A stretch of DNA of 64,000 bases from Alphaproteobacteria bacterium (lineage in GTDB: Bacteria > Pseudomonadota > Alphaproteobacteria > Reyranellales > Reyranellaceae): positions 372,001 to 436,000 of the forward strand of contig JAHBYP010000005.1 in NCBI GenBank assembly GCA_019635875.1, read 5' to 3'. The position numbers were made by a program, and so were the translations under genes. The notes below the pieces were generated by a model. It saw nothing but the letters and a program-made list of their open reading frames with translations, had not been told where the DNA came from and ran no database searches. This document shows positions 23,027 through 40,902 of the stretch, piece by piece; positions within the stretch are counted from its first letter, which is position 1, and each line of letters opens with the position of its first letter.

Positions 23027-23052
23027 AAGGGCCGCCCTCGCGGGCGGCCCTT
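23027..23052 (-). terminator. Strong 11-bp hairpin closing the small mRNA (or attenuating dodecin)
   Basis: AAGGGCCGCCC (23027-23037) and GGGCGGCCCTT (23042-23052) pair perfectly around a 4-base loop. In the minus direction the hairpin follows the small ORF stop by about 40 nt and is trailed by CTTGCATTTGG, a weak U-tract. It can end the small transcript or act as an attenuator before dodecin. Confidence 0.65.
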
Positions 23053-23093
23053 CCATTGCCACGGCCTCGATTTCCGGGGCCAAGACGGCTCGA

Positions 23094-23171
23094 TCAGTCG
23101 GTGTTCCCCGAAGTGGAGACAGCAACGATCCAGGCCTTGGCCTTACGGGGCCGAACGTGACAATGAGACAC
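23094..23171 (-). CDS. rreB/rreR-type small ORF (25 codons) with extended Shine-Dalgarno
   Basis: The frame starts with GTG at 23171 and stops with TGA at 23096-23094. The peptide begins VSHCHVRPRKAKAWIVAV and ends SGNTD, basic in its first half. The GTG sits seven bases after AGGAGG within a 17-nt block perfectly complementary to the 16S rRNA 3' end. A promoter at 23210-23238 and a hairpin at 23027-23052 bracket it, giving a predicted mRNA of about 180 nt. A 165-nt Bradyrhizobiaceae mRNA (rreB) with a 17-nt Shine-Dalgarno, a GTG start and a very short peptide, and a Rhodobacter-lineage counterpart (rreR), have been described; all those traits recur here. Family membership is inferred from architecture, not from peptide alignment. 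The peptide may matter less than ribosome capture by the leader. Confidence 0.72.
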   Translation of the reverse strand: MSHCHVRPRKAKAWIVAVSTSGNTD

Positions 23172-23187
23172 TGGATCACCTCCTTTC
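23171..23187 (-). promoter_or_regulatory. Extended Shine-Dalgarno: 17 nt complementary to 16S rRNA 3' end
   Basis: Minus strand GAAAGGAGGTGATCCAG; its plus-strand complement CTGGATCACCTCCTTTC is the standard alphaproteobacterial 16S 3' terminus. The last G is also the first base of the GTG start codon. Ordinary sites pair over 4-8 nt. Confidence 0.85.
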
Positions 23188-23209
23188 GGTTGTTGGAACA
23201 AGGACAGGC

Positions 23210-35373: not shown

Positions 35374-37491
35374 TCAATTCTTGAGAAGCGCCGCCATGAC
35401 GCGCTCGCGCGTCAGAGGCATGTCGTGGATACGAACGCCCAACGCATGGGCGACGGCGTTGCCGATCGCTGCCGCCGTCGGGCCGACGGTGCATTCGCCG
35501 ACGCCGAGCGGCGGATTGCCGGCGGCGTCGACCAACTCGACCTCGATCTCGGGCACCTCGCTGAAGCGCAGGATCGGGTAACTGTCCCAGTCGCGCGAAG
35601 CGATGCCCTGCGCGTCGAGCCTGACCTGCTCCTTGAGGGTCCAGCTCACCGCCTGGACGATGCCGCCCTCGAGCTGGTTGCGCGCGCCGTCGGGATTGAC
35701 CACGAGGCCGGCGTCGGCGACGCACCACACGCGATCGACCTTCACCGTCTCCTGCACGGTGACCGATGCGGCCACCGCGGCATAGGCGGCGCGGTTCTTG
35801 TAGCGCGCCATGGCCAGGCCCAGCCCCTTGCCCGAACCGCCGGTGCCGCGCGCATTCCAGCCGGCGCGCCCGGCGACCCGCTCGAGGATGTGGCGTGCGC
35901 GCTTCTCCGAGAGGATCGACAGGCGATAGGCCAACGGATCCTCGCCCGCCTTCGCCGCCAGCTCGTCCATCAGCATCTCGATGGCATAGACATTGGGCAG
36001 CGCGCCCAGCCCGCGCAGCGCCGAGGTGCGCACCGGCGGCCGCTGCACCAGGTGATGCACGATGCGATGCGCCGCCACATCATAGATCGGCACGGCGTTG
36101 CGCGTGCCGCCGCCGCCGCGCGCCTCCGGCGGATCGGTCGGCTTCACCTCGGGCGGCGGATCGGCCAGCGCCTCGGTCGCCAGCAGATAGCCGCTGCCGC
36201 TGCCCGGCCGCTGCACGTGCGTGGGGCTCCAGATCTCCGTCGTCCAGTCGACCGGCCTGCCCTTCTCGTTCAGGTCGACATGCAGGGTCACCAGCATCGC
36301 TGGCCCGACCGGCTCGAAGGCGAACTCCTCCTCGCGCCGCCATTGCAGGCGGATCCAGCGATCGGGAATGCGCAGCGCGACCAGCGAGGCATCGAGCGCC
36401 GCGTCGTCGGCGCCGTTGTGGCCGTAGCAGCCGGCACCGTGCAGATGCTGCGCCGTGATCGCCTCGATCGGCAGCTTCAGCGCCGCCGCCAGGTTCTTGC
36501 GCAGCGGATGCATGCCCTGCCCGTGCGAGCGCACGGTAAGATGGCCGTCATGGAACCGCACCAACGCGCAGGAGGGCGCCATCGAGGCGTGCGCCACATA
36601 GGGCCGCGAGACGGTGATCCGCGCCATATTCTTGGGCGGCGCGGTCGCGGCCGGCGAGCCGATATGGCGATCCTCCGCCGGCTGGTCCTTCAGCCACTGC
36701 GCTTCCTGCTGCTCGGGACCGATCGGCCGCACGTCGCGCCAGGTCGCGTAGCGCTCGGCCGCCACCGCCGCTGCCTGTGCCACGCTCTCGACCGGGCTGA
36801 CGAAAGCGACGAAGTTGGCTTCGCGCACGATCTGCAGCTCGCCCTTCGCAGCGCGGCGGATCGCGGCCTCGTCGAGCGCAGCCAAGGTCGCGCCGCGCGA
36901 GGGCTGACGCAGGGTGCGCGCGTGCAGCACGTCCGCCGGCAGCACATCGTGCACGAAGGCGGCGCCGCTGAGCTTCGCCGGCAGGTCGATGCGCGGCACG
37001 CTCTGGCCGACGACCTTGTACGACGCGCTCGGCTTCACCGGCGCGCTGCCGGTGACGTTCTGGCTGAGATCGATCTCGCCGGCGACGCTCCAGTAGTCCT
37101 GGCCGCTCTCGGCGCCGTTGCGCAGGAAGCGCCCGCCCTCGACGCTGAGATCGTCGGGGCTGCAGTTCAGCCGCAGCGCCGCGCGCTCGATCGCCTTGGC
37201 CCGCACTTCGGCGCAGACCAGCCGCACCGAGCCGCCCGACACCTCGATCGACAGCGACGAGGTCGTGTAGAGCTCGTCGGGTCCGGCATCGGTGTCGCCC
37301 GACAGCACGACGACGCGCTCTAGCGGCAGGTCGAGCTCGTCGGCGGCGATCTGGCCGATGGCGGTGACGACGCCCTGGCCGATCTCGACCTTGCCGGTGG
37401 CGATGCGCACGGTGCGATCAGGCAGGAAGGCGATCCAGCGATCGAGCCGGGGATTTTCGACCAGGCTGGCCGGCAGGGTGGGCGCGTTCAT
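35374..37491 (-). CDS. Molybdopterin-binding oxidoreductase large subunit (isoquinoline 1-oxidoreductase beta-like)
   Basis: The gene encodes 705 aa from the ATG at 37491 (MNAPTLPASLVENPRLDRW), overlapping the FeS-subunit stop by 4 bp. It has the permuted/IorB-type layout that starts directly with the second molybdopterin domain: RIATGKVEIGQGVVTAIGQIAADELDLPLERV. The a/b-hammerhead-like section is internal (VPRIDLPAKLSGAAFVHDVLPADVLHARTLRQP), followed by SHGQGMHPLRKNLAAALKLPIEAITAQHLHGAGCYGHNGADDAALDA, RTSALRGLGALPNVYAIEMLMDELA and PPLGVGECTVGPTAAAIGNAV with the catalytic Glu. Such two-subunit enzymes hydroxylate N-heteroaromatics or oxidise aldehydes and pass electrons to a cytochrome. The gene has no Tat signal. 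Confidence 0.88.
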   Translation of the reverse strand: MNAPTLPASLVENPRLDRWIAFLPDRTVRIATGKVEIGQGVVTAIGQIAADELDLPLERVVVLSGDTDAGPDELYTTSSLSIEVSGGSVRLVCAEVRAKAIERAALRLNCSPDDLSVEGGRFLRNGAESGQDYWSVAGEIDLSQNVTGSAPVKPSASYKVVGQSVPRIDLPAKLSGAAFVHDVLPADVLHARTLRQPSRGATLAALDEAAIRRAAKGELQIVREANFVAFVSPVESVAQAAAVAAERYATWRDVRPIGPEQQEAQWLKDQPAEDRHIGSPAATAPPKNMARITVSRPYVAHASMAPSCALVRFHDGHLTVRSHGQGMHPLRKNLAAALKLPIEAITAQHLHGAGCYGHNGADDAALDASLVALRIPDRWIRLQWRREEEFAFEPVGPAMLVTLHVDLNEKGRPVDWTTEIWSPTHVQRPGSGSGYLLATEALADPPPEVKPTDPPEARGGGGTRNAVPIYDVAAHRIVHHLVQRPPVRTSALRGLGALPNVYAIEMLMDELAAKAGEDPLAYRLSILSEKRARHILERVAGRAGWNARGTGGSGKGLGLAMARYKNRAAYAAVAASVTVQETVKVDRVWCVADAGLVVNPDGARNQLEGGIVQAVSWTLKEQVRLDAQGIASRDWDSYPILRFSEVPEIEVELVDAAGNPPLGVGECTVGPTAAAIGNAVAHALGVRIHDMPLTRERVMAALLKN

Positions 37492-37958
37492 GCGGCACCG
37501 CGCAAGGCAGAGGCGGCGCGCTCGACCGCGCGCAGGATGCGCTGGTGTGTGCCGCAGCGGCACAAATGCCTGTCGAGCGCCGTGACGATGTCGGCGCGCG
37601 ACGGGTTGGGATTGCGATCGAGCAGCGCCTTGGTCGACATCACGATGCCGGAGAGGCAGTAGCCGCACTGGCCCGCCTGCTCGTCGAGGAAGGCCTGCTG
37701 GATCGGGTGCGGCCTGTCCGCCGTGCCCAGCCCTTCGACGGTCATCACCGAGCGCTTGGCCAGCGTGCCGATCTCGCGCGTGCAGGCATGCGCCGGCGCG
37801 CCGTCGACCAGCACCACGCAACTGCCGCACTGCTCCAGCCCGCAGCCGTAGCGCGTGCCCATCAGGCCCAGCCGATTGCGCAGAACGTCGAGCAGGCTCG
37901 CGGTCGGCGGCGCATCGACCGTGCGGGCCACGCCGTTGACGGTGAAGGCGATGTCCAT
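37488..37958 (-). CDS. (2Fe-2S)-binding small subunit of molybdenum hydroxylase (IorA/CoxS-like)
   Basis: The 156-aa protein (MDIAFTVNGVARTVDAPPTAS) carries both clusters of the family: plant-ferredoxin type CGLEQCGSCVVLVDGAPAHAC (about 40-60) and the C-terminal four-helix domain with QCGYCLSGIVMSTKALL and HLCRCGTHQRIL (about 100-145). It passes electrons from the Mo cofactor of the partner encoded directly downstream. With no FAD subunit nearby, the complex resembles isoquinoline or nicotinate oxidoreductases of the two-subunit kind. Confidence 0.93.
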   Translation of the reverse strand: MDIAFTVNGVARTVDAPPTASLLDVLRNRLGLMGTRYGCGLEQCGSCVVLVDGAPAHACTREIGTLAKRSVMTVEGLGTADRPHPIQQAFLDEQAGQCGYCLSGIVMSTKALLDRNPNPSRADIVTALDRHLCRCGTHQRILRAVERAASALRGAA

Positions 37959-37983: not shown

Positions 37984-38110
37984 CTCTCCCTCTCCCCGTT
38001 TACGGGGAGAGGGTCGGGGTGAGGGGCTGTATCAGGTGGCGTACCGCGGCTGTGCGCTACCTGAAGCGCCCCCTCACCCCAACCCTCTCCCCGCACGCGG
38101 GGAGAGGGAG
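37984..38110. repeat. Dispersed inverted repeat, family C (CTCTCCCCG..CGGGGAGAG type)
   Basis: Each arm is a small hairpin (CCCTCTCCCCGTTTACGGGG and CCCTCTCCCCGCACGCGGGG), and the arms pair with one another through GGTCGGGGTGAGGGGC / GCCCCCTCACCCCAACC. A second copy is at 41750. It lies between the FeS subunit gene and the selenoprotein gene. Confidence 0.82.
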
Positions 38111-38119
38111 CTGAAGGCA

Positions 38120-38974
38120 TCACGACGGCCGCCTGGCGCGCTGGCGGCGGCGTTCTTCGCCGCGCGCCAGCAACGCCTCGCGCTCCGCCGGATCGATGCG
38201 GTTGTAGCGCGCGCGCCAGCCGGGATCGTCCTTCCAGGCGAAGGGCGTGCGAACGGTCGTGCGCGGCGCGTTCGCGGACTCCAGCAGGCGCAGCCCCTGC
38301 TCGGCGATGGCTCGCTGCATGTCGGGCCGCCAGGGATGGCCGGCGGGATTGCCCAGCGGGAAATCGCTGAACAGGAAACGCGGCACGCCGCAATGCTCGA
38401 CGATGTCGAGCGCCGAGCCGAGGATCACGGTCGGCACGCCGTGGGCTTCGAGATGACGGGCGACCAGACTCACGGTCTGGTGACAGACGGGTCAAAGCGC
38501 GCACAACAGCGCGGCATCGGCGCCGTCCTCGCGTATTCGCGCCAGCACGTCGGGCGCGTCACGCTCCATCGTCTTCTTCTGGCTGTACTCGGTCGGCACG
38601 CCCACGAAGCGCGGCGCGATGCCGCCGATCACGCCGTCGGCCGCCAGCGCCGTCACGGCCTCGATCGGCAGGTAGCTCTCGCGATCGTCGGTGTGCGTCG
38701 AGTCCCTGTCCCAGGCGACATTGGTCGTGAGGCCCTGCGGCGGCGGCGACACCGGCGCCGACCAGGCATGCCGCACGCCATGCGCGTCGCGATTGCCGTC
38801 ATCGGGCGGGCCGGCCGTGGTGATCAGCGCGATGCGCGCCTGCGACAACGGCTTGCTCAACCGGGCGAACGGCACGTCGTCGAAATGCGCCCAGACATAG
38901 TCGTTGGCGTAGCCCAGCGCGCGGTAGTAGTGCCGCGTGCGCTCCATGTAGCCGGTCGGTGAACTATCCATCAT
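38120..38974 (-). CDS. Glycine/D-proline reductase selenoprotein-B-like protein with UGA-encoded selenocysteine (U161)
   Basis: Read straight through a single in-frame TGA (38494-38492), the frame from ATG 38974 gives 284 aa. The junction reads ALLCAL-U-PVCHQTVSLVARH and continues LEAHGVPTVILGSALDIVE, FLFSDFPLGNPAGHPWRPDMQ, and a basic tail. The upstream half includes DDVPFARLSKPLSQARIALITTAG and ESYLPIEAVTALAADGVIGGIAPRFVGVP, typical of the GrdB/PrdB family, where the matching position is Cys or Sec in a U/C-x-x-C motif (here U161, C164). A SECIS-like hairpin begins 10 nt after the UGA. Without Sec insertion, two meaningless fragments would result. The start overlaps the stop of the nitroreductase gene (TGATG). 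Its true reaction in an aerobe is unknown; a thiol/selenol redox role is likely. Sec machinery is not in the window. Confidence 0.82.
38463..38481 (-). promoter_or_regulatory. Bacterial SECIS-like hairpin for the GrdB/PrdB-like selenoprotein
   Basis: On the mRNA, ACCAGAC (38481-38475), loop CGTGA (38474-38470), GTCTGGT (38469-38463) form a perfect 7-bp stem. The loop starts 17 nt after the UGA and has G as its second base, meeting the usual bacterial SECIS rules. TGAC at the UGA can also pair with GTCA at 38457-38454 as a lower stem. Confidence 0.7.
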
Positions 38975-39647: not shown

Positions 39648-39808
39648 TCTTCCCTTCTCCCCGCGAAGGCGGGGAGAAGGTGCCGAGCGTCAGCGAGGCG
39701 GATGAGGGGCTTCTCGCGCAACGACAAGCATCGGTGCTGTCGAGCCTCCGCGAAGCCCCTCATCCGCCCTTCGGGCACCTTCTCCCCGCCTTCGCGGGGA
39801 GAAGGACA
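39648..39808. repeat. Dispersed inverted repeat, family D (CTTCTCCCCGCGAAGGCGGG type)
   Basis: This 160-bp element has outer arms CTTCTCCCCGCGAAGGCGGG and CCCGCCTTCGCGGGGAGAAG and inner arms GATGAGGGGCTTC / GAAGCCCCTCATC. It is the only copy seen here. It lies between the LLM oxidoreductase gene and the nitroreductase gene. Confidence 0.82.
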
Positions 39809-39849: not shown

Positions 39850-40902
39850 CTAGTTGCGCACGTGCGGAATGACATCCTTGCACAGCAGCTCGAGCGAGCG
39901 CATCACCCGGGCGTGCGGGATCTGCGCGCCGCAGTTCATCTCGGCGAGGATGCCGTCCAGCCCGAGTTCGGCCTGCAGCGCCTTGAGCCGTGCGACGACC
40001 TGATCGGGCGTGCCGACGATGATCTTCTCGCTGAGCGCCTCGTCGTAGCTGACGCTGCCCAGCTGCGCCGCCCGGCCGGCGCGATCCTCGAGCGCGCGCG
40101 TGCCCTCGGCATTGGCGCTGGCCGCCAGGATCGCGGCCATGTCCTGGTAGAACTGCATGATGCTGGCGCGCGGCTCCTCGTAGGCGCGCGACTCGCTCTC
40201 CGCGACATAGACCGGCACGCGCAGGTAGATCTCGCCCCGGCCGGGATGGCCGGCCTTCTGCCAGGCGGCGTGGTACTGCGCGATCAGCGGCGCCAGCTCC
40301 GACAGCACGCCGAGACGGACCGCGACGAAGATGGGGAAGCCCAGCGTGCCGATGCGCGCGTAGCTGTCGGGACTGGTGGCGGCGATGCGGATCGGCGGGT
40401 GCGGCTTCTGCCACGGCTTGGGCACGAGATGCACGTCGCTGAAGCTGTGGTACCTGCCCTGGAAGGAGAAGCTGGGCTGCGTCCAGGCGCGGCGGATGAT
40501 CTCCAGCACCTCGGCGAAGCGCTCCTGGCTCTCGCCGTAGGGCACGCCATAGGCCTGGTAGGTGCGCGGGAAGCCGGAGCGGCCGACGCCGAAGATCAGC
40601 CTGCCGCGGCTGATGTGGTCGACCGTGGCCGCCTCTTCGGCCACGCGCAGCGGATGGCAGAGCGGCAGCACCTGCACGGCGATGCCGATCTTCATGCGCG
40701 TAGTGCGCGCGGCGATGGCGCTGGCGATCGCCAGCGGCGCGGAGGCCACCGAGCGCGTCGGCGCGACATGCAGCTCGGCCAGCCACATGCAGTCCAGCCC
40801 CCAGCTTTCCGCCGCGTCGACCTGCTCGAACGACTCGGCGAAGGCCCGCTCCTCGCTGTAGCCGCGCGGGCATTGGAACTCGTGGAACATGCCGATTTCC
40901 AT
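39850..40902 (-). CDS. LLM-class flavin-dependent oxidoreductase
   Basis: The 350-aa TIM-barrel enzyme is of the bacterial luciferase-like superfamily (MEIGMFHEFQCPRGYSEERAF). Family segments are ESWGLDCMWLAELHVAPTRSVASAPLAIASAIAARTTRMKIGIAVQVLPLCHPLRVAEEAATVDHISRGRLIFGVGRSGF, a good match to the alkanal monooxygenase group, and KIIVGTPDQVVARLKALQAELGLDGILAEMNCG near the C-terminus. It uses FMNH2 (or F420) and probably oxygen; the substrate is unknown. GGAGGAGCGGCC precedes the ATG. It stands alone between repeats. Confidence 0.92.
   Translation of the reverse strand: MEIGMFHEFQCPRGYSEERAFAESFEQVDAAESWGLDCMWLAELHVAPTRSVASAPLAIASAIAARTTRMKIGIAVQVLPLCHPLRVAEEAATVDHISRGRLIFGVGRSGFPRTYQAYGVPYGESQERFAEVLEIIRRAWTQPSFSFQGRYHSFSDVHLVPKPWQKPHPPIRIAATSPDSYARIGTLGFPIFVAVRLGVLSELAPLIAQYHAAWQKAGHPGRGEIYLRVPVYVAESESRAYEEPRASIMQFYQDMAAILAASANAEGTRALEDRAGRAAQLGSVSYDEALSEKIIVGTPDQVVARLKALQAELGLDGILAEMNCGAQIPHARVMRSLELLCKDVIPHVRN

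Follow-up and report, generated by a model that had tools for sequence, protein, structure and literature searches.

Proline and glycine reductases depend on a partner subunit that carries a pyruvoyl group and derives from PrdA or GrdE. PrdB-type UxxC selenoproteins were described in marine metagenomes, where they ranked third in abundance among the known families of the Sargasso Sea set, with 42 sequences, and numbered 235 in GOS (PMC1088965, PMC2398784). An early survey with a limited genome set reported formate dehydrogenase as the sole selenoprotein of Alpha- and Betaproteobacteria (PMC1794560), and a later one termed genomes with at least six selenoprotein genes 'selenoprotein-rich', these being mostly anaerobes (PMC5029168). 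The gene analysed here lies in a 64,000-nucleotide stretch of an alphaproteobacterial contig (hereafter the window), and the explanation that fits best overall, and in which we have good confidence, is that it encodes a free-standing PrdB/GrdB-superfamily selenoprotein with a Sec161-x-x-Cys164 pair, working without a pyruvoyl subunit.

The PrdB/GrdB-like gene occupies positions 38120..38974 on the minus strand, the strand having been left out of the original prediction. Read from 38974 to 38120 with TGA as U, it forms one frame of 284 amino acids, in which the sole internal TGA is codon 161 (38492..38494, minus) and the true stop is 38122-38120. The claim of a split gene, consisting of two same-phase frames with a TGA between them, was therefore confirmed as a single frame with one internal TGA. 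The motif at codon 161 is U-P-V-C-H-Q-T (context ALLCAL-U-PVCHQTVSLVARHLEAHG / ALLCAL-U-PVCHQTVSLVARHLEA) and was predicted to stand at the family redox site; in the alignment its position is indeed that of PrdB. The codon of Cys164, the second residue of the UxxC pair (38483..38485, minus), is invariant in alignment A1, including clostridial PrdB.

Profile searches of the source genome (6.2 Mb, 17 contigs, reported as 100% complete) recovered the complete selenocysteine machinery that had been named as a check, namely selA (558 bits), selB (457 bits, cut-off 242), selD (266 bits, cut-off 125) and tRNA-Sec (72.3 bits; anticodon tca with ARAGORN). selB adjoins selA on contig C2, tRNA-Sec lies on the opposite strand about 180 bases beyond the 3' end of selB, and selD is found about 17 kb from this locus.

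Residue 161 was encoded by TGA, TGC or TGT in every homologue listed, so that the TGA is aligned with a conserved Cys. The 80 homologues from genome contigs comprised 8 with Sec (TGA) and 72 with Cys, with no other residue at this codon. selB was above the cut-off in 7/8 Sec genomes vs 3/31 Cys genomes searched (Fisher p 6e-5, without correction for kinship, the statistics ignoring shared ancestry in a Sec set dominated by one family); the lone Sec genome without selB over the cut-off is a draft MAG. Three genomes had a Cys homologue and yet selB (G091, G093 and G107, with loci L034, L036 and L072), and G093 carried two selB-like genes over the cut-off. The Cys homologues of Roseomonas and Haematobacter, with their kin in Bradyrhizobium, share 44-68% identity and the same motif with C for U, but they differ in having Cys161 and a mostly decayed SECIS, mostly without selB in the genomes searched. 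Those of Roseomonas and Haematobacter are annotated as 'glycine/sarcosine/betaine reductase selenoprotein B family protein'. In Bradyrhizobium the direction of change was most likely from Sec to Cys, because the four Cys161 orthologues formed a clade (100) nested within a mostly Sec clade (99) in a quick tree, selB was absent and the hairpin was partly decayed. This switch offers a natural comparison on why Sec is retained.

The geometry of the SECIS-like hairpin was as originally described: on the minus strand, at 38463..38481 (ACCAGAC-CGUGA-GUCUGGU), the stem ACCAGAC/GUCUGGU starts 10 nt past the UGA, and the loop CGUGA lies 17 nt from it with G at loop position 2. With the T of TGA counted as 1, positions 14-20 pair with 26-32 around CGUGA. 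The six inner pairs form in 23/23 distinct Sec sequences, whereas all six were kept in just 3/58 distinct Cys sequences. Compensatory variants occurred at four of the six pairs among the 23 Sec sequences (C-G/G-C; A-T/G-C; A-T/G-C/C-G; A-T/G-C), in which the loop was CGTGA or CGTGG. Protein constraint does not account for this conservation, because within the identical peptide PVCHQTVSL the Val-Ser pair was encoded by GTG-AGT in 17/17 Sec genes vs 2/51 Cys genes. A paralogue in L102, with the peptide UPFCTRAVS, had another stem (GCGCGC/GCGCGC) with loop, position and pairing unchanged. Scanning the genome for the pattern TGA-N16-CCGTGRG gave 14 matches, and 6/6 pairs were present solely in the five PrdB-like genes, each with long frames on both sides. 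Folded as a single sequence, the hairpin did not stand out from chance (z +0.28 to -1.25), and the proof of the SECIS is comparative; an Rfam scan of the window at gathering thresholds gave no match to the hairpin. The proposed SECIS check was answered through covariation instead of bSECISearch, and it indicated a downstream element with a small loop and an early G that is under selection.

Based on genomics and covariation, the gene almost certainly encodes a genuine UGA-recoded selenoprotein, as judged from sequence, and the in-silico checks (sel genes, tRNA-Sec, residue 161 and SECIS) lend strong support to what had been predicted. Mechanical ORF calling yields two ORFs, as would be expected if the UGA were an ordinary stop and the locus held two genes, or a truncated gene followed by a downstream ORF (GTG at 38473). 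We consider this extremely improbable, since homologues continue through this position with a Cys codon in place of the TGA, the hairpin is kept in TGA members and seldom in Cys members, the TGA recurs in each of the five paralogues as well as in relatives from several genera, and the genome carries the sel genes. A sequencing error, or a recent nonsense mutation of a Cys codon that left a pseudogene, would take a single base (TGC or TGT to TGA); its probability is practically negligible given the identical TGA in separately sequenced relatives (82-83% identity) and dozens more, the intact frame on both sides of the TGA and the covariation of the SECIS.

The assignment to the GrdB/PrdB family in the original prediction held as remote homology and did not extend to function. 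The PrdB model TIGR04483 was matched with E 1.3e-24 and 87 bits vs a cut-off of 300, a genuine PrdB scoring 420 bits on the same model. The Grd models overall (GrdF/GrdH/GrdB) gave 31-39 bits vs cut-offs of 65-800, and the curated protein B models were likewise missed (TIGR01917, 31.3 bits vs 602; TIGR01918, 33.9 vs 65.45). Pfam GRDB (PF07355) barely passed, with 25.6 bits vs a gathering threshold of 22 and over residues 22-64 only. The UxxC redox position was present, and eleven columns were invariant down to clostridial PrdB, including Sec161, Cys164, D97, P103, G114, R199, G208, G212, P214 and Q220. A search with PF09338 (PrdA/GrdE-type), which covers both PrdA and GrdE, gave no match in the genome or in three single-contig relatives; as a positive control, the model matched a Terrisporobacter plasmid with prdA. 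Given scores this far below the cut-offs and no PF09338 partner detected, alongside five divergent paralogues, it is highly probable that the PrdB-like protein is not a classical proline or glycine reductase.

The PrdB of clostridial D-proline reductase resembles the protein in homology over ~210 residues, in the Sec position, in U-x-x-C-H and in the invariant residues. It differs in ~30% identity, in the motif (UGTC there, UPVC here) and in gene context, and the protein described here has additional N- and C-terminal stretches and no PrdA-type partner that could be found. GrdB/GrdF/GrdH (protein B of glycine, sarcosine and betaine reductase) share UxxC, and the homology, which is weak, lies in the C-terminal half of GrdB, but the present protein has about two thirds of their length, scores far under their cut-offs, and a GrdE-type subunit was not found in the genome. 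The marine metagenome 'proline reductase PrdB' (Sargasso Sea, GOS) has the UxxC motif, was assigned to pfam07355 in GOS and is abundant in surface water (PMC1088965, PMC2398784). The gene and these marine sequences probably belong to the same free-standing group, a likeness by description only, and the differences lie in the five paralogues in one organism and the known gene context of the present case. It is very likely that free-standing PrdB-like selenoproteins from oxic waters represent a kind already known and filed as 'proline reductase'. The oddity of finding such a protein in an aerobe, which had been implied originally, is weakened by marine surveys that list PrdB/UxxC as common (PMC1088965, PMC2398784).

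The AlphaFold2 model, for which the underlying alignment leaves out plasmid-derived rows, had a pLDDT of 88.5 and a pTM of 0.89 and predicts a Rossmann-like alpha/beta domain. Foldseek with this model returned nothing below E 0.001. VIA-align gave a best Z of 9.1 to a LacI/periplasmic-binding type, and numerous unrelated Rossmann-like folds scored nearly as high; membership of the LacI/periplasmic-binding family was dropped, as these close-scoring unrelated folds point to a common alpha/beta arrangement. No meaningful relative was found in a PDB sequence search, and a match to 7rmy, covering 30 residues of a designed protein, was discounted.

In the mechanism that we propose, SelA and SelD would form Sec on tRNA-Sec, and SelB would bind the CGUGA hairpin and deliver Sec at the UGA, giving the 284-aa protein. 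The Sec161 selenolate would attack an electrophilic or oxidised small substrate, Cys164 would resolve the selenenyl intermediate to a selenenylsulfide, and this would be re-reduced by cellular thiols, thioredoxin or glutathione. The PrdB-like protein would act without the pyruvoyl subunit required by proline/glycine reductases, and in the genus of the source genome the overlapping nitroreductase-family flavoprotein may function in the same pathway. This chemistry was drawn from the motif and the homology to PrdB/GrdB, and the UxxC redox cycle of Sec161/Cys164 is about an even call; it cannot apply to every member, because tandem U-P-L-D paralogues are without the second Cys. Our best guess is a stand-alone selenol reductase, which probably carries out some reduction other than that of proline reductase, since the obligatory proline reductase partner is missing. 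For GrdB relatives, an attack on the C-F bond of fluoroacetate has been proposed (PMC10838667), which makes carbon-heteroatom cleavage a reasonable candidate chemistry.

Upstream of the selenoprotein gene, a nitroreductase-family gene (PF00881; 38974..39612, minus) has a stop that overlaps the selenoprotein start; the predicted overlap is real and amounts to one base (TGATG at 38974), and the same neighbour is present in two same-genus relatives. A luciferase-like (LLM) monooxygenase gene further upstream (39850..40902, minus) and a gene for the [2Fe-2S] subunit of a molybdenum hydroxylase-type enzyme downstream (37488..37958, minus) are conserved in the genus as well, the gene order being nitroreductase, selenoprotein, [2Fe-2S] subunit, Mo hydroxylase, VOC protein and racemase-like protein at 69-92% identity. 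Beyond the genus, neighbours vary between genera, and clustering of the neighbours found no constant partner gene; as far as seen, the nitroreductase link is limited to the genus of the source genome. A TPR-repeat-like protein of ~440 aa (cluster c4) was noted beside or near PrdB-like genes in six loci of Sec and Cys genomes (L139:5995-7272, L145:5893-7302, L025:5858-7165, L027:5794-7158, L132:7605-8912 and L153:1874-3229) and is a possible functional partner of PrdB-like proteins.

These neighbours and family scores bear on three other functional readings. A true component of D-proline or glycine/betaine reductase would explain why the PrdB and GrdB models are the best family matches and why the redox position is the same as in PrdB, but with 87 bits vs 300 for PrdB and 31-39 vs 65-800 for the Grd models, no partner detected with PF09338 in the genome and neighbours that are not amino-acid reductase genes, it is very improbable. 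Unlikely, to a lesser degree, is a stand-alone antioxidant or thiol-disulfide type oxidoreductase instead of a metabolic reductase: the UxxC pair is as in redox selenoproteins, and PrdB was placed among thiol-dependent redox selenoproteins (PMC1088965), but the predicted fold is Rossmann-like with no thioredoxin-like fold among the matches listed, and no oxidative-stress genes were noticed adjoining. Within the genus, the protein could be a dedicated partner of the nitroreductase in a catabolic pathway that would also comprise the LLM monooxygenase, the Mo hydroxylase and the VOC and racemase-like proteins; it might, for instance, cleave a xenobiotic intermediate or reduce it. The one-base overlap and the gene order kept in three genomes of the genus speak for such a role, which we nonetheless regard as somewhat doubtful, as orthologues with 66-72% identity in other genera sit elsewhere, without the nitroreductase.

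The free-standing selenoprotein is one of five PrdB-like members in the genome, each with one in-frame TGA. Besides the gene under study (C5:410123-410974), these are C9:227822-228646 (66% identity), C2:452602-453453 (48%), C1:915883-916638 (38%) and C12:123675-124292 (33%). The C1 paralogue lies 3' of a sulfurtransferase-like gene and 5' of peptide ABC transporter genes, and a CoA ligase-like gene is near the C12 paralogue, the names having been given by reading the sequences. The presence of several paralogues suggests different substrates. A formate dehydrogenase with one TGA was also detected (C8:100854-103898, 1479 bits), as in most of the order, bringing the genome to at least six selenoprotein candidates. 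In a sample of 76 genomes of the order, 75 of them from one family, the PrdB-like family was matched in 74/76, nearly all listed matches carrying one TGA, and selB was over the cut-off in 72/76; the sole genome of the order's other family had neither a PrdB-like match nor selB over the cut-off.

Three genomes (G049, G052 and G072) carry selB and Sec PrdB-like genes, and in none of them did the matches listed for two models include a formate dehydrogenase with a TGA. Two of these, G049 and G052, are single-contig relatives (99 and 100% complete), in which the PrdB-like family alone may for this reason maintain the 21st amino acid. A wider proposal is that Reyranellaceae-type Alphaproteobacteria keep the Sec machinery largely for expanded, partnerless PrdB-like selenol reductases, with as many as five or six matches in one genome and a tandem U-P-L-D partner among them, which would catalyse reductions new to the proline/glycine reductase superfamily; we offer this tentatively, inclining slightly against it.

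Among openly licensed papers, none was found that deals with UPVC selenoproteins and none of relevance to the selenoproteins of Reyranella, and neither repeated paralogy in one alphaproteobacterial family, nor the absence of the partner, nor genomes with the family as possible main Sec user were found described. What is new is the five-fold paralogy in an alphaproteobacterial family together with the missing partner, the PrdB-type kind itself being known. A partnerless PrdB-like enzyme is a tractable entry to the superfamily, for which the sequence search found no solved structure.

Some further observations were made on the relatives and on the window. Four relatives (L152-L155) carry a PrdB-like selenoprotein with U-P-L-D-H-Q-T, in which Asp replaces the second Cys, with the same SECIS type and the loop CGTGG (L152:1258 on the plus strand; L153, L154 and L155 on the minus strand at reverse-complement offsets 4087, 645 and 4611). 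In L152-L154 this gene and a U-P-V-C selenoprotein gene form a direct tandem; U-P-L-D is perhaps a Sec-only variant, and the two products perhaps a heteromeric pair. Large palindromic intergenic elements at 37986-38110 and 39653-39805, with CCCTCTCCCCGT-type and CCTTCTCCCCGC-type arms, flank the nitroreductase-selenoprotein pair. The sole Rfam match in the window, unrelated to the gene, was the Caulobacter sRNA CC2171 (RF01867) at 23028-23195 on the minus strand, with 83.9 bits vs a gathering score of 75.
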